A stretch of DNA of 64,000 nucleotides from Cocleimonas flava (GCF_004339015.1 NZ_SMFQ01000002.1:621351-685350); one strand, 5' to 3'; shown: positions 9,792 to 47,833, numbered from the stretch's first letter. Translations and numbers: made by a program. Notes: generated by a model not told the origin, from the sequence alone.

Positions 9792-11354
9792 TTAGTCAGT
9801 CAACGTTTTAATCTCATCAAGCAGGCATTTCAACTGCAACGGCTTTTCAGTATTCACGGTAACAGCAAACTCAAGCTCCTCTTCATTCAACGCTTTCCAT
9901 TGAGCTATTTGATGCTCAAGCACCGCAAGATCCGCATCAGACACGTCATTTTTTCTCGCAATGATTCGTTCTCGCAACACATCATTGGAAGCACTGACTT
10001 CGACAATAATAAATGACACCCCCCTACTTTTAGCCAGTTTTTTAAAAGGCTCTCTTTGCTGTTGCTTTAAAAATGCGGCATCGACCAACACGGTATTGCC
10101 AGCATTTATGATTGTCGATGCTAGCTCAAGAAGCTTTTCATAAGTTTGTTCAGATGATTCAGGCGTGTAAATGCCTTCATCAACAGCATTAGACGTTTTC
10201 GCTGTAACATCAAGAGACACATCAAACAGTCGCTTGCGCTCGACATCGGAACGTATTCTTATCGCGCCAGTGTTCTCCAGTATTTGCTGGGATACCGTAC
10301 TTTTACCCGATGCAGATAAACCCCGCATAATGATTAATGCAGGTGATCGTTCTTTAGCGTAACGTAAAGCCAAAGCGATGTACGAATCAAACTCTGCCAG
10401 CGCTGTGTTTTTCGAATCATCTGTTATTTGCTGAATACGCAAGGCATCGACTTTAGCTCGCACCATCGCACGATAACTGAGATAAAAAGGCAGGATTGAT
10501 AGCCCTTCGTAGTCGCCAGTAATCTCCAGATACGCATTTAAAAAACGATACGCCAGCTGATCTTGCTTGCGGTCTTGTAAATCCATAATCAAAAAAGCGA
10601 TTTCGCTGATGACATCAATCCAACGTAAGTTATCATTAAACTCTATACAATCGAAAGCCAATGCTTTGTTATTCAACCACACGAGATTGCGTAAGTGCAT
10701 GTCACCATGACATTCTTTGATGAAACCATCGCGTTTGCGCTGGGAGAAAACCGGTTGTAACCGGGCAAATTCAGATTCACTCCATTTTTTTAACGCACTC
10801 AACTTTTCGTCATAAGCAGATACTTTCAACGCTTCGCTTATGTGCTCAAAATTTTCTTTGACTGGTTGGGAAATTTTTTCAGGCTTACCATAATCCGTGT
10901 TAGCGCCTGCTGCCGCTGTATTTTCATGAAACGTTGCAACCATCTGCGCAATGCTATCGATGTGCTTATTCCCGAGTTTACCTGCATGAAGCATATTATC
11001 GAGTTGTGCCGATTGTGGAAATTGGCGCATTTTCACCGCGTATTCAACTACATATTCAACTGTATTGTTATCATTTGAAATAACAGGATTTTCAGCAGTA
11101 CCTGAAATAGAAACAACATCCAGGTAGATATCAGGCGCTAATCTGCGATTAAGATTTAACTCCTGTTCACAGTATTTCTTTCTTTTTTCCAAGGTAGAAA
11201 AATCCAGAAAACCAAAATTCACCGGTTTCTTGATTTTATAGGCATAGTCACCGGTTAACACAACCCAGGAAATATGGGTTTCTATTAACTCTATGTTTTT
11301 AACAGGATGATCATAAACATCAGGATTTAACAGCTTCTTAATGTTAAAACTCAT
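9792..11354 (-). CDS. Fused aminoglycoside-phosphotransferase-like / P-loop kinase protein
   Basis: The 520-residue protein joins a COG2187-type phosphotransferase domain (about 1-340) to a COG0645-type P-loop kinase (about 340-520). The first carries the Brenner-type catalytic motif ECHGDMHLRNLVW and an AFDCIEFND segment. The second has Walker A GLSASGKST and an IRSDVERKRLF motif like gluconate-kinase-type small-molecule kinases. The fusion is common in proteobacteria but its substrate is unknown, and there is no reason to expect antibiotic resistance. It is the last gene of the 20-9.8 kb minus run. A copy of the dispersed element is embedded in frame in the C-terminal domain (10017-10043). 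AAAGG precedes the ATG. Confidence 0.85.
   Translation of the reverse strand: MSFNIKKLLNPDVYDHPVKNIELIETHISWVVLTGDYAYKIKKPVNFGFLDFSTLEKRKKYCEQELNLNRRLAPDIYLDVVSISGTAENPVISNDNNTVEYVVEYAVKMRQFPQSAQLDNMLHAGKLGNKHIDSIAQMVATFHENTAAAGANTDYGKPEKISQPVKENFEHISEALKVSAYDEKLSALKKWSESEFARLQPVFSQRKRDGFIKECHGDMHLRNLVWLNNKALAFDCIEFNDNLRWIDVISEIAFLIMDLQDRKQDQLAYRFLNAYLEITGDYEGLSILPFYLSYRAMVRAKVDALRIQQITDDSKNTALAEFDSYIALALRYAKERSPALIIMRGLSASGKSTVSQQILENTGAIRIRSDVERKRLFDVSLDVTAKTSNAVDEGIYTPESSEQTYEKLLELASTIINAGNTVLVDAAFLKQQQREPFKKLAKSRGVSFIIVEVSASNDVLRERIIARKNDVSDADLAVLEHQIAQWKALNEEELEFAVTVNTEKPLQLKCLLDEIKTLTD
10017..10043 (-). repeat. Dispersed G-run element, copy 4, inside a coding region
   Basis: Core AAAGTAGGGGGGTG (read on the minus strand) preceded by an A-tract and CTGGCT. 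It is very similar to intergenic copy 17 along its whole length. It is translated in the host gene as KKLAKSRGVSF, a position where the COG0645 domain normally has similar residues. Confidence 0.78.
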
Positions 11355-42795: not shown

Positions 42796-43716
42796 TTAAA
42801 CGACCAGTACTCCCTGAGTTTTACTTACAGATATTGACGCGCTGACACCTGCACTAAAATCAAGATAATCATTTTCAAGGCCATCTGAAAAGATCACACC
42901 ATTCTCCGCCATCTTAGAGGTGAGAACTAACGGCTTCTTCTGATCCACTCTACCGAATACCAAATCTGTTTGAGATTGCTGACTAGGGAATGGCTCCCGA
43001 ACGGTGTAATACAAATACTCACTATCCCATTGAAAACCATTGGCGATCTTTTTTTGCACTGGTCTACCCGCAATTCCTGAAGCGCCTGCGATTAAACTTT
43101 TAAACCAACCCGTCGAACCTAGACCAGTGCTGATGATAACTCCACTGGAACTTTGGCTTTCTTTTTTGCCATTCCATTCCACATCATAACGTGCTGAAGT
43201 GTGCGATTTAGGGCCAACAAACAAATCATTAACCGCTAATAAACTGTCGCCCAAATTTGTTGTTGCTTCAGCCATAGTGATAGTTTTGAAATTCATCTTC
43301 TTTGCTAAAACATCTGCTAAAACTAACGGTAAATCCCCAGCAGTAAATGGCAATAACACACCATCAAAGCTCTGCGGAGAGGGGTTGATAGCTATCACTG
43401 ATTGACCTGTAAGGTATTTTAACGTGTTTGCTACCAATCCATCTTGGCCAAGTACAACCACAATGTCATCTCGAGAAAATTTATAGGTTGGTAAGTACGA
43501 ACGATCTAACTGCTGCACCCTGCCCGATGCTTTTAAAAAACTAAGCACTTGTTTATGCACGGTATGAAACAAACCATCTTCCACCTCATACTGCTCAAAG
43601 GATTCGCCTAAATGCTCAATGTAAAACTTGGCTTGTCCTAAGGTGCCGTACTTCTGTTTTAACTCGTGCAAACGAGTGTGACGGGTTACCAATATTAATT
43701 TTCTGTCAGTTTCCAT
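42796..43716 (-). CDS. NAD kinase-like protein
   Basis: The 306-residue protein belongs to the NAD kinase/diacylglycerol kinase fold. The usual GGDGT loop reads VVVLGQDGLVANTL, so the second Gly is Gln. The NE motif appears as AVNDLFVGPKSHTSARYDV, and IISTGLGSTGWFKSL is the conserved STGSTAW-like segment. Start is the ATG at 43714-43716 after AGAGGTG; the GTG 9 bp upstream sits within the ribosome binding site. Activity is uncertain given these changes. It follows the SPFH gene and faces the NrtR regulator's region, so a role in NAD metabolism is likely (inference). Confidence 0.75.
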   Translation of the reverse strand: METDRKLILVTRHTRLHELKQKYGTLGQAKFYIEHLGESFEQYEVEDGLFHTVHKQVLSFLKASGRVQQLDRSYLPTYKFSRDDIVVVLGQDGLVANTLKYLTGQSVIAINPSPQSFDGVLLPFTAGDLPLVLADVLAKKMNFKTITMAEATTNLGDSLLAVNDLFVGPKSHTSARYDVEWNGKKESQSSSGVIISTGLGSTGWFKSLIAGASGIAGRPVQKKIANGFQWDSEYLYYTVREPFPSQQSQTDLVFGRVDQKKPLVLTSKMAENGVIFSDGLENDYLDFSAGVSASISVSKTQGVLVV

Positions 43717-43750
43717 TGTGATCACCTCTTTCTATTAAATAAGCTATTTG

Positions 43751-44755
43751 CTATTTGATGAGTGACTGCAACAATTCTGGCGAAATATTCAAGTTGCCCA
43801 CCTTATTGCCTTCCTGAGTTAAGTTTTCAAACGATTGAGCGATTAACTGGGCTGGCGCCATCTTGCTCATTGCCAATGCTTTCAACACTTCAGCAGGAAC
43901 CGAATCATAAGCTTTAAGCTGCTTTTCGATGCTGTAGGCAGACGTATCAGCCTTCGCTTTCTCATTGCCCGTTTCAAGCTCTATCAAACTTTGACGCTGC
44001 TCTTCTTCGGCGATGGCGGCTTGCATGTTTTCTTCATTTAACACATTACGTTTTTTCATCACCGCACGCTCAGCTTCGATTTTCGTTTCCTGAATCTCCT
44101 GCTCTTTGCGCTGCATCGCGACTTCTGTTTCAAGCTCCGATTCCTTTACTCGCTTTTCCTGGTCAATACTGGCTAAGCGACGTTCGTAAATTGCGTCATC
44201 GGCTTCTTTCAATAGTTGCTCACGAATCTCTGCTTCTAACGCTTTTTCAGTTTCAGGTGTCGGCGAAATGGCGACGATCGATACATCGACAATGGTCACG
44301 CCTAAATCAGCTAGTGCTTTATTGCTTTGTAACGCCGTATCAAGCTCTTTCACCAACTTCGGTGCCATGCTTAATGACGCTTTCAATTGTTGCTGCTGGA
44401 TATTATCCCTAAGCAATACCTGTACGCTTCTCAACACACGCTCATCCAGTTTTTGCGGATCTTCTGATAAGTATTTACCTTTCTTATCGATAGTGAAGTT
44501 AAGCATTTTCGATACCGCTTCGGCGTCAGAAATACGATAAGTCACCTGCCCTTGCACCGTTACTCTCTGAAAATCTTCCGATTGCAAACGAAACGCAAAC
44601 GGCAATTCCTTGCTAGTAACAGGGACGGCAACCAGTGATGTTTTTGGGCCGAAGTAATAAAAGCTCATACCGACACCCTGTTTAACTGCTCGACCTTTTT
44701 GATACTGAATCAAGTGAGTTGAAGGGTCTGATTTTATGTAGTTAATTCCAAACAT
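43751..44755 (-). CDS. SPFH/band-7 domain protein
   Basis: The start is the ATG at 44753-44755 after AGGAGG, giving 334 residues and no signal peptide. The first half is an SPFH domain (MFGINYIKSDPSTHLIQYQKG...VTVQGQVTYRISDAEAVSKML). The second half is a long Glu/Lys/Gln coiled coil (about 190-280), and the end contains a YDSVPAEVLKALAMSKM segment. SPFH proteins oligomerise into scaffolds. It is first in a probable operon with the NAD-kinase-like gene, directly under two NrtR-type palindromes. Confidence 0.88.
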   Translation of the reverse strand: MFGINYIKSDPSTHLIQYQKGRAVKQGVGMSFYYFGPKTSLVAVPVTSKELPFAFRLQSEDFQRVTVQGQVTYRISDAEAVSKMLNFTIDKKGKYLSEDPQKLDERVLRSVQVLLRDNIQQQQLKASLSMAPKLVKELDTALQSNKALADLGVTIVDVSIVAISPTPETEKALEAEIREQLLKEADDAIYERRLASIDQEKRVKESELETEVAMQRKEQEIQETKIEAERAVMKKRNVLNEENMQAAIAEEEQRQSLIELETGNEKAKADTSAYSIEKQLKAYDSVPAEVLKALAMSKMAPAQLIAQSFENLTQEGNKVGNLNISPELLQSLIK

Positions 44756-44789
44756 GATTGACCTCCTGTTAAATGAAAAATAGATTAAT

Positions 44790-44802
44790 TGTCCCAGAGA
44801 CA
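44790..44802. promoter_or_regulatory. TGTC-N5-GACA palindrome, site 1
   Basis: TGTC-CCAGA-GACA lies 35 bp upstream of the SPFH start. It is one of three identical-arm palindromes in the divergent NrtR/SPFH region, probably NrtR operators. Confidence 0.65.
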
Positions 44803-44823
44803 TTCAATGCTTAGATAGATAAT

Positions 44824-44836
44824 TGTCCTTGAGACA
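44824..44836. promoter_or_regulatory. TGTC-N5-GACA palindrome, site 2
   Basis: TGTC-CTTGA-GACA, centred 34 bp (about three helical turns) from site 1, followed by a further TTGTC half-site. Probably an NrtR operator for the SPFH operon. Confidence 0.65.
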
Positions 44837-44900
44837 CTATTTGTCAAACGTTTTTTGTGAATTTTTAATTATTTGCTTTTTAAACAATGACTTGCTATTT

Positions 44901-44913
44901 TGTCTTTACGACA
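44901..44913. promoter_or_regulatory. TGTC-N5-GACA palindrome, site 3
   Basis: TTTGTC-TTTAC-GACAAA is the longest and most perfect of the three, 36 bp before the nrtR start. Its position suggests autoregulation. Confidence 0.65.
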
Positions 44914-44948
44914 AATAAACTCGTTTTTATAAGATTTATCCAAAATCT

Positions 44949-45653
44949 ATGACACAAGAAAACTTCAAATCCCCCTTACTCACCGTTGATAGTGTGCTAT
45001 TCACCATCAAAGATAACTCGCTGAAAATTCTATTGTTAAAGCGGAAGAATTCACCGTTTCAAAATAGCTGGGCACTACCGGGTGGGTTTATCGATGTGAA
45101 TAGAGATGATTCCGCAGAAAACACGGCAAGTCGTAAATTAACAGACAAAACAGGCGTGACACCCCCCTACTTAGAGCAGTTAAATACGTTTTCATCCAAG
45201 AGTAGAGACCCGCGAGGCTGGAGTGCTTCAATCGCCTATTTTGCGTTGATCGCACATGAAGAAACCAATCTAAAAGTAACACCTAGAAATGATGAAAGTG
45301 CGCAATGGGTGGATGTAGAAAGCCTTATGGATGAAACCGCTAATTACCAGCCATTAGCTTTTGATCACCAACAGATCTTTCAATTCGCATTGGAACGCTT
45401 AAAGCAAAAGGCGCTGTATTCGATGCTACCCGTGTTTTGTTTACCCAAGGAATTCACGCTTGGTGAATATCACACATTGATTGAAATAATTCTGGGAAAG
45501 TCTATTCAGAAAAAAACCTTATATCGCCGCTTTGAAGCTTCAAATATGTTCGAAGAAACCGGAGAAACAGTAGCAACAGGCGCAAGAGCAGCAATGTTAT
45601 ACCGATTAAAAGAAGATGCGGAACTGGTGAATTTCGAAAGGAATCTAGGTTAA
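44949..45653 (+). CDS. nrtR: NrtR-type Nudix transcriptional regulator
   Basis: The 234-residue protein has an N-terminal Nudix-like domain (SVLFTIKDNSLKILLLKRKNSPFQNSWALPGGFID) and a C-terminal winged helix (FTLGEYHTLIEIILGKSIQKKTLYRRFEASNMFEETGE...ARAAMLYRL), the layout of the NAD-metabolism repressor NrtR. The Nudix catalytic box is degraded (NTASRKLTDKTGV in place of REL-EETG), so it is likely an ADP-ribose sensor rather than an enzyme. It contains dispersed element copy 12 in frame. It is divergent from the SPFH/NAD-kinase-like pair. Confidence 0.87.
   Translation: MTQENFKSPLLTVDSVLFTIKDNSLKILLLKRKNSPFQNSWALPGGFIDVNRDDSAENTASRKLTDKTGVTPPYLEQLNTFSSKSRDPRGWSASIAYFALIAHEETNLKVTPRNDESAQWVDVESLMDETANYQPLAFDHQQIFQFALERLKQKALYSMLPVFCLPKEFTLGEYHTLIEIILGKSIQKKTLYRRFEASNMFEETGETVATGARAAMLYRLKEDAELVNFERNLG
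45160..45173 (-). repeat. Dispersed G-run element, copy 12, inside nrtR (core only)
   Basis: An exact minus-strand core TAAGTAGGGGGGTG. The gene reads it as TPPYL in GVTPPYLEQL, a position where Nudix regulators typically have a conserved YLEQL. The outer arms are mostly absent, so this one could be chance. Confidence 0.6.
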
Positions 45654-45730
45654 TCGATTGTACATTTTTATCTAACGCATCAAACAGAAACAAACTGAAA
45701 AAACAATTCACTCTATAATTATTTCATACC

Positions 45731-45758
45731 CACCCCCCTACTTTGGAGGGCTTTTTTT
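45731..45758 (-). repeat. Dispersed G-run element, copy 13
   Basis: Minus-strand core AAAGTAGGGGGGTG preceded by an A-tract and GCCCTCC. It lies 78 bp after the nrtR stop, before dps. CCTCC and GGGGG could pair to form a terminator. Confidence 0.87.
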
Positions 45759-45965
45759 AAGCGATCATTTACACTAAAAACTGATTGCCTAAATATTCAC
45801 TAAACACCTCATATATTGATTCTGCTATTTTCTAATATGCAGCTCAAATAGTATTTTCACACTACGTATTTGTAACAATTCAACTACGTTTATCTACGGA
45901 TTATCTAAACAACTGAATCCGAGTATCTTCATATCTCGATAAAACGAACAATGAGGAAATTGAAA

Positions 45966-46439
45966 ATGACTAGTATAAATATCGGAATTAATGAAGAAGG
46001 CAGATTGAAAATAGCCGAGGGCTTAAAAAAACTTTTAGCTGATTCATACACCCTTTATTTACAAACCCATAACTTCCATTGGAATGTAACAGGCATGCAG
46101 TTTCGCGAATTACATTTGATGTTTGAAGAGCAATATACTGAATTAGCGACTGCGGTCGATGATGTTGCAGAGCGTATTCGTACTCTGGATGTTCCTGCTC
46201 CCGGAACTTATATTGAGTTCTCAAGATTAAGTTCTATTGCCGAAGTTGAAGGCGTGCCAAGCTCTATGGAAATGGTTGAATTATTAACCAAAGGTCACGA
46301 ACAAGTGATCAAAACCTGTCGGGAAGTATTGAAGATTGCTCAAGAGTTTGAAGATGAATCTACAGCGTCTTTAGTTTCTGATCGCATGGTCATTCATGAA
46401 AAAACAGCATGGATGCTAAGAGCAACGACTAAAAATTAA
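45966..46439 (+). CDS. dps: Dps family DNA-binding ferritin-like protein
   Basis: The 157-residue protein starts at the ATG at 45966, eight bases after TGAGGAA; the frame opens 15 bp earlier but without support. It has the Dps ferroxidase ligands in [37 protein letters not shown] and a [10 protein letters not shown] segment. Dps dodecamers oxidise and store iron and protect DNA from peroxide. A long 5' region follows nrtR. A ferric-reductase-like gene is next, suggesting an iron/redox theme. Confidence 0.93.
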
Positions 46440-46492
46440 TCAACAAACCAAGATAATTTAGGACAATGCAGGACGGGTGAGAGGCAAATAAA

Positions 46493-47833
46493 ATGCTTAG
46501 AAATATCAAACTGAGTCTATGGGGTTTTCTCATTGGATTGAGCGGTTTGTGGATACTGGCAAATTTGTCTCTCCCGGAAACGCTGAACTTCAAATCCATC
46601 CGCGATCTGTTTATTCAGTACTCTGGTGTAATCGCAATGGGCACTATGAGTATCGCGATGGTATTAGCGCTTCGTCCGGTTTGGCTAGAACCCTGGCTAG
46701 GTGGTCTGGATAAATCCTATCGCTTACACAAGTGGCTGGGTATTTCCGCACTCACCGGTTCAGTTTTACATTGGCTTGCCAAAAATGTGCCTCACTGGGC
46801 GATTGATCTGGGTTTGATGGAACGAGGCGCACGTGGACCACGACCAGATCCCGCTACATTAAGCGCAGCTCAGCAATTCTTTAATGAGCTGCGCAAACCC
46901 GCTGAATTTGTTGGTGAGTGGATATTCTATGCAGTGGTGCTTCTGATCGCGCTCGCTTTAATTAAACGTTTTCCTTATCGACTCTTTGCCAAAACACATA
47001 AGTTGCTTGCAGTTGCTTATTTAGCGCTAGTATTCCACACAATCGTGCTATTGGACTTTGCCGCATGGACCAAGCCGCTAGGCATTTTTATGGGACTTTT
47101 ATTATTGGCAGGTACGGTGTCGGCGGTTTTAGTTCTGACAAATCAAATAGGCAAGAAGCGACAGGCAGAAGGGACAATAGAAACGCAACATCATTTCCCT
47201 GAAATGAAAGTACTTGAAACCTCAATTCTGCTGAAAGACGGTTGGAAAGGTCACAAAAGTGGTCAATTCGCTTTTGTAAATTTTGATGCCAAGGAAGGAC
47301 AACACCCTTTTACCATTGCCTCTGCATGGAACGCTAAAGATCCTCATATTACTTTCATTACCAAAGGATTGGGTGATTACACTGATTTACTTCCTGAACA
47401 ATTACACAGCGGTAACAAGGTAAACGTGGAAGGCCCTTATGGTTGTTTTACATTCGACGATAATAAAAAACGCCAGATCTGGATAGGCGGTGGTATTGGT
47501 ATCACGCCCTTTATCGCTCGTATGAAACAACTCGCTCAACATCAAGGCGGCCAAGCCATCGATCTTTTCCACAGCGCGACAGAATTAGCACCCGAGGCGC
47601 TGGAAAAGCTAACCGCAGATGCCGCGGCGGCGAATGTAACATTGCATGTGATGATCGACAGTCGTGACGGTTTTCTAACCGGAGAAAAAATACGAAATGC
47701 TGTTCCCGAATGGCAGTCAGCTAGCTTCTGGTTCTGCGGTCCTGCGGGATTCGGCTCAGTATTACGTAAAGATATGTCGGCTAATGGTTTGCCCAAAGGT
47801 GCTTTCCATCAAGAATTATTCAATATGCGTTAG
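46493..47833 (+). CDS. Ferric reductase-like transmembrane flavocytochrome
   Basis: The 446-residue protein has six or so transmembrane helices with paired His (HKWLGISALTGSVLHWL; AKTHKLLAVAYLALVFHTIVLL), typical haem-b ligands of the ferric reductase-like domain. It is followed by an FAD-binding domain (HPFTIASAWN) and an NAD(P)H-binding domain (WIGGGIGITPFIARM; FWFCGPAGFG). It transfers electrons from NAD(P)H across the inner membrane to a metal or oxidant outside. GAGG precedes the ATG. It is 53 bp downstream of dps. Confidence 0.87.
   Translation: MLRNIKLSLWGFLIGLSGLWILANLSLPETLNFKSIRDLFIQYSGVIAMGTMSIAMVLALRPVWLEPWLGGLDKSYRLHKWLGISALTGSVLHWLAKNVPHWAIDLGLMERGARGPRPDPATLSAAQQFFNELRKPAEFVGEWIFYAVVLLIALALIKRFPYRLFAKTHKLLAVAYLALVFHTIVLLDFAAWTKPLGIFMGLLLLAGTVSAVLVLTNQIGKKRQAEGTIETQHHFPEMKVLETSILLKDGWKGHKSGQFAFVNFDAKEGQHPFTIASAWNAKDPHITFITKGLGDYTDLLPEQLHSGNKVNVEGPYGCFTFDDNKKRQIWIGGGIGITPFIARMKQLAQHQGGQAIDLFHSATELAPEALEKLTADAAAANVTLHVMIDSRDGFLTGEKIRNAVPEWQSASFWFCGPAGFGSVLRKDMSANGLPKGAFHQELFNMR

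Follow-up and report, generated by a model that had tools for sequence, protein, structure and literature searches.

The window analysed here, a 64,000-nucleotide stretch of the Cocleimonas flava genome, contains two divergent transcription units made up of three genes. On the plus strand lies nrtR (44949..45653), encoding a 234-aa protein with a Nudix domain and an NrtR-type winged helix; on the minus strand, a gene for an SPFH/Band 7 protein (43751..44755, 334 aa) and one for an NAD-kinase-like protein (42796..43716, 306 aa) form an operon running from 44755 to 42796. The starts of the two minus-strand genes were set by conservation, at 43716 for the kinase-like gene and at 44755 rather than 44803 for the SPFH gene, which has a conserved MFGI start with GGAGG upstream. 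Three TGTC-N5-GACA palindromes, to which no strand is assigned, separate nrtR from this operon. Operator 1 (44790..44802, TGTCCCAGAGACA) lies on the SPFH side, downstream of the SPFH promoter, operator 2 (44824..44836, TGTCCTTGAGACA) falls within the -35/-10 spacer of that promoter, and operator 3 (44901..44913, TGTCTTTACGACA) is about 36 bp 5' of the nrtR start codon. The promoter, as predicted from the sequence (44819..44847, minus strand), consists of TTGACA at 44847-44842 and a weak -10 element, AATTAT, at about 44824-44819. The site of a repressor is expected to overlap a promoter, and the position of operator 2 fits this expectation. The first-pass annotation had described the three genes under these identities and had placed sites with common arms and a 5-bp spacer at 44790, 44824 and 44901, two towards SPFH and one towards nrtR; we find the same genes and the same arrangement of sites.

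The TGTC-N5-GACA pattern occurs four times in the window vs 0.74 times expected from dinucleotide shuffles, and none of 100 shuffles reached four. The fourth palindrome, at 10700, falls within a reading frame of 520 aa and is an incidental match. At the rate seen in the window, the probability of finding three palindromes within a single 193-bp intergenic region is about 2e-9. The consensus of 36 exact-core sites, approximately TTAGTGTC-N5-GACACTAA, shows A/T conservation in the flanks and W at the centre, its 13-bp core being fixed by the selection of exact matches. The succession of TTGAC(A) and operator at the SPFH promoter recurs with the same spacing in Paraglaciecola (L020) and Pseudoalteromonas (L021). 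The assignment of NrtR as the repressor and of the palindromes as its operators is well supported.

In its intact, catalytic form the Nudix motif is REUXEEXG. The Nudix box of the window NrtR (LPGGFIDVNRDDSAENTASRKLTDKTGV) is degenerate, and its hydrolase is very likely dead because the box reads RKLTDKTG (vs RKLAEKTA in S. oneidensis NrtR), with loss of the catalytic glutamates, in line with the first-pass proposal of a catalytically dead regulator. The protein matches the Pfam families NrtR_WHD (52.7 bits) and NUDIX (51.9 bits), both above the curated cut-off, and scores 219 bits, below the cut-off of 400, against the NCBIfam equivalog NF050029 (ADPR-responsive repressor NtrR). Its best relative in the PDB is S. 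oneidensis NrtR (3gz5/3gz6, E 2.6e-56), with 47% identity. In our tree, it forms one clade (100/97) with Alteromonadales NrtRs, including those found beside NARP1 operons with the same operators (see below), and S. oneidensis NrtR groups (100/96) with the NrtRs of the Providencia and Acinetobacter cassettes that carry the same gene trio, to which it is 70-72% identical. S. oneidensis NrtR and the window NrtR fall within a common clade. ADP-ribose suppresses the DNA binding of S. oneidensis NrtR (PMC4666351). We infer that the window NrtR would likewise bind its operators and have ADP-ribose as its inducer.

The SPFH protein matches Pfam Band_7 (48.8 bits) and has a long coiled coil at about residues 167-284, with no clear membrane segment (its highest 19-residue hydropathy is 1.68). 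Its AF2 model is of low confidence (pLDDT 65) and too poor to use. The NAD-kinase-like protein matched no family in a Pfam search, PF01513 included, and its identity comes from its AF2 model (pLDDT 79), for which the best Foldseek match is human NADK2 (7r4j, E 6.4e-18, probability 1.00, TM 0.70/0.64), followed by bacterial NAD kinases; a seven-sequence profile of the family also matches NADK2 (E 8e-9). With mitochondrial NADK2 (7r4j, 7n29) it shares the NADK2-type fold, an extension at the N terminus, the ND/NE motif and the TGxGS loop; the identity over the structural alignment is 16%, GQDGL takes the place of GGDGT, and the partner is an SPFH protein. The catalytic-site positions Asp92, Asn163-Asp164 and STGxGST are kept. 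Within the signature GQDGLVAN, the second Gly of GGDGT has become Gln and the Thr has become Leu, with the Asp retained; GQDGL is found in all homologues covering this position except one, which has PDGL. To our knowledge, no proven NAD kinase has a motif of this kind. Since a canonical NadK, matching PF01513, is encoded elsewhere in the genome, the modelled fold makes this protein a second, specialised member of the NADK fold.

The trio, whose conservation the first-pass annotation had proposed to check, recurs in many genera together with its operators, and the absence of the palindrome from orthologous regions, which it had named as an argument against the assignment, is not what we observe. 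Trio and operators are found in Paraglaciecola (L020), Pseudoalteromonas (L021), Colwellia/Cognaticolwellia (L022-L024), Aestuariibacter (L025) and family relatives (L029, L030, L033), and the trio is also carried by Providencia and Acinetobacter lwoffii plasmids and by a Proteus record. An identical 13-bp core is present in the nrtR-SPFH intergenic region of Paraglaciecola, Pseudoalteromonas, Colwellia and Aestuariibacter, of Providencia, Acinetobacter and Proteus, and of the family-level relatives; one core base is changed in the operator variants of L028, L088, L096 and L103, and the Rhizobium intergenic region, read by eye, has a diverged operator with the same outer-arm geometry (CTTAGT-N11-ACTAAG). 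In a sister species (L027, G007), the proteins are 97-99.7% identical to those of the window, and the intergenic region has three substitutions, none of them in the 13-bp cores. An uncultured Cocleimonas encodes a kinase-like protein 98% identical to that of the window. The dN/dS values between window and sister species (0.10 for the kinase-like gene, 0.007 for SPFH and 0.24 for NrtR) show by computation that the trio is under purifying selection.

In a class sample of 369 genomes, 14 have the kinase-like gene, 58 have NrtR-like genes and 10 have both (P 3e-6 for co-presence); in all ten, NrtR lies near the kinase-like match on the same contig. The association is not strict, the SPFH-kinase pair being found without a neighbouring NrtR in L094 and L095, and the kinase-like gene without SPFH in L093. 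In a second form of the trio the genes are collinear (nrtR-SPFH-kinase; L035, L097-L099, L101 and L102), and most NrtRs of this form have an intact Nudix box; in L035 (3623-7369) nrtR, SPFH, the NADK-like gene and nadA form one apparent operon. Two of the 12 genomes of the genus carry the cassette, as do 70 plasmid records, a distribution that argues for horizontal mobility. A phage origin of the kinase-like gene was considered and set aside, no match being found in 50,697 phage records.

The reading of the locus as an NrtR regulon, put forward in the first-pass annotation, was supported for the repressor, its operators and the trio, but not for a wider regulon (pncB and others) in this genome. 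Three pattern searches of the whole 4.49-Mb genome returned additional sites that were only coding or poorly flanked, none of them with both arms and flanks, and the genome-wide match counts did not exceed those of a reversed-pattern control. No member of the NAPRTase/NAMPT family (PncB, NadV, Nampt, Namat; PF04095) was found in the genome in a search that detected its controls, so that pncB and nadV cannot be targets there. We found no canonical NAD gene as an NrtR target in this genome, the predicted target there being the NADK-like gene, and the circuit appears to be local, comprising autoregulation and one operon. The locus shares with studied NrtR regulons (S. oneidensis NrtR, 3gz5/3gz6; M. 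smegmatis NrtR, PMC6800001) the two-domain architecture and degenerate Nudix box of the regulator, palindromic operators at divergent or own promoters and an autoregulatory layout. It differs from them in having several operators per intergenic region, in the lack of NAPRTase-family salvage genes in the genome and in its target, an SPFH and NADK2-like pair in place of nadA/B/C, nadE, pncB or nadV. The view that an SPFH protein and an atypical NAD kinase are an unusual target for NrtR, already expressed in the first-pass annotation, is supported.

A link to NAD metabolism is suggested by the relatives of this cassette. Downstream of the kinase-like gene, Pseudoalteromonas (L021) and Colwellia (L022-L024) have two additional operators, after which come prs-like and nadV-like genes. 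The nadV-like protein (L021-L024, L105) has the phage Namat structures 9W5X/9W5W as its best PDB match and carries the Namat signature GSX-phi-X-phi-X-phi-TRD as GSYSYQYVTRD. The prs-like protein encoded beside it, a putative Adps, is 44-45% identical to its phage counterparts; its matches to solved PRPP synthetases have E values no better than 5e-22. Adps and Namat constitute NARP1, an anti-NAD-depletion pathway that converts ADP-ribose to NAD+ (PMC12774641). A NARP1-type operon in Colwellia and Pseudoalteromonas is preceded by the same regulator and operator as the window cassette, which is new here. Among the papers searched, none was found that names both NARP1 and NrtR. In other lineages, NrtR adjoins NARP1 without the SPFH pair. 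In L105 (G173), nrtR is divergent from a NARP1 operon with three operators; in L106, adps, namat and nrtR share a strand, and GAYTYQYLTRD narrowly misses the signature; and in Acinetobacter baumannii DNA (L155, 4509-7726), adps-namat-nrtR has the Namat signature GSFTYNYLTRD and, read by eye, the palindrome TATATAGTGGC-N5-GCCACTATATA before adps. NrtR, we infer, places NARP1 under induction by the pathway's own substrate. In Colwellia, Pseudoalteromonas and G173, NARP1 has the operator and regulator of the window cassette, and the substrate of NARP1 is ADP-ribose, the known NrtR ligand; the two differ in that Namat/NARP1 is absent from the window genome and that the SPFH-kinase pair shows no sequence relationship with Adps-Namat.

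Our preferred interpretation, which we hold to be reasonably probable, is that the cassette is a self-contained, mobile NAD(P)-homeostasis module, induced by ADP-ribose, in which NrtR represses the SPFH protein and the NADK2-like kinase. The observations on which it builds are the operators, their overlap with the promoter in the window, the conservation of the trio, the protein families and fold, the phylogeny and the operator held in common with NARP1. NrtR, with its dead Nudix domain and winged helix, would bind the 21-bp palindromes and repress both divergent units, because one site is in the -35/-10 spacer of SPFH and another just before nrtR. Cleavage of NAD+ would raise ADP-ribose, which would enter the Nudix pocket and cause NrtR to leave the DNA; the SPFH scaffold and the kinase would then be made and the NAD(P) pool adjusted. 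The kinase, presumed active, probably phosphorylates NAD(H), or an ADP-ribosyl nucleotide related to it, at an assembly formed by the SPFH protein, with which it may interact. As to the probable physiological purpose, the membership of the repressor in an ADP-ribose-sensing family and the same operator on NARP1 of relatives suggest that the cassette answers NAD loss. In the window genome, which has neither NARP1 nor an NAPRTase gene, the link to NAD depends on the kinase-like gene and the relatives of the regulator. A bolder version, to which we give some credence but which we would not bet on, is that the SPFH and NADK2-like pair, as an enzyme module induced by ADP-ribose, performs a new reaction in the repair of NAD/ADP-ribose and can replace or complement NARP1 under a single NrtR operator, and that bacterial NARP1 is a normal salvage pathway, inducible by ADP-ribose through NrtR.

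Alternatives bear on each part of this scheme. The same repressor circuit might control a protein that is no NAD kinase, but phosphorylates ADP-ribose or another ADP-ribosyl compound as a counterpart of the NARP1 Adps. The family-wide replacement of GGDGT by GQDGLVAN, the separate canonical NadK and the fact that one NrtR/operator controls the SPFH-kinase pair, the Adps-Namat pair or both are in keeping with this; we nevertheless consider it unlikely, NADK2 being the nearest fold and the motifs of the NAD site being retained, and we know of no NADK-fold member that acts on free ADP-ribose. That NrtR here responds to NAD, NADP or a pentose rather than to ADP-ribose is improbable: other effectors do occur in the family, L-arabinose for AraR and NAD for C. 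glutamicum NdnR (PMC4666351), but the window NrtR is 47% identical to the ADP-ribose-responsive S. oneidensis protein, is remote from AraR (its Pfam AraR_C score does not reach the cut-off) and has clade mates that sit on an operon with ADP-ribose as substrate. As for the palindromes being due to chance or belonging to another factor, the 13-bp cores alone are found elsewhere in the genome, and one of those in the window lies in a coding frame; we give this almost no weight in view of the rarity of the triple occurrence, the conservation of the cores across genera, the promoter overlap and the recurrence of the palindromes at NARP1 operons adjoining the same regulator.

The cassette could also serve in stress or defence, as an island that is switched on by NAD+-cleaving anti-phage systems or by ADP-ribosylating toxins and shields the cell or the mobile element. 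Its patchy and plasmid-borne distribution would suit such a role, as would the anti-NAD-depletion function of NARP1 (PMC12774641) and the joining of NrtR-NARP1 to NADAR, KptA, RtcB and RNA ligase genes in L105. PADLOC gave no credible match (best model 15.6 bits), so that no known anti-phage defence system was recognised, and the kinase-like gene, as mentioned above, is not found in phage records; we judge this role to be distinctly unlikely. ADP-ribosylation defence systems with Nudix or WYL transcription factors (PMC9503650) resemble the cassette in placing a Nudix-type factor, as proposed ADP-ribose sensor, beside NAD/ADP-ribose enzymes, but neither SPFH nor NAD kinase is mentioned in that work.

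PMC12774641 calls for more work on what chromosomal NARP1 does physiologically. The presence of NrtR and matching operators beside NARP1 in marine gammaproteobacteria offers a testable answer, namely that ADP-ribose, to which studied NrtR relatives respond (S. oneidensis NrtR, PMC4666351), brings about its own recycling by induction. With the window cassette, a second enzyme pair comes under this switch, and its SPFH and NADK2-like families, whose annotations read hypothetical or sugar kinase, gain a concrete inducer and substrate class that can be tested.

Several features of the surroundings may be added. After nrtR, the window has genes for a Dps-like ferritin and for a flavin reductase-like membrane protein (45951-47833); co-transcription of nrtR with the Dps gene is unlikely, since about 300 bp separate the two and a hairpin with a T run, resembling a terminator, was identified by eye at about 45730-45757. 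In the sister species, the EamA transporter gene adjoining the cassette (L027, 7543-7898) matches only partially and in two frames, and may be broken. In L105 (1939-11222), the NrtR-NARP1 operon is followed by NADAR, KptA/Tpt1, RtcB, release-factor-H-like and RNA ligase genes, forming an ADP-ribose and RNA repair cluster. The Acinetobacter 'phage' contig with adps-namat-nrtR (L155) looks like host DNA, and the Haemophilus ducreyi plasmid NC_005329 (3873-5282) has a nicotinate phosphoribosyltransferase-type gene 41% identical to the Colwellia Namat. In pHHV216, Acinetobacter lwoffii and Proteus mirabilis (L089, 7432-10850; L091, 4100-8847; L156, 6842-11567), the cassette or a truncated form with its SPFH-kinase part is immediately adjacent to a tetracycline resistance gene, tet(H) or tet(J).
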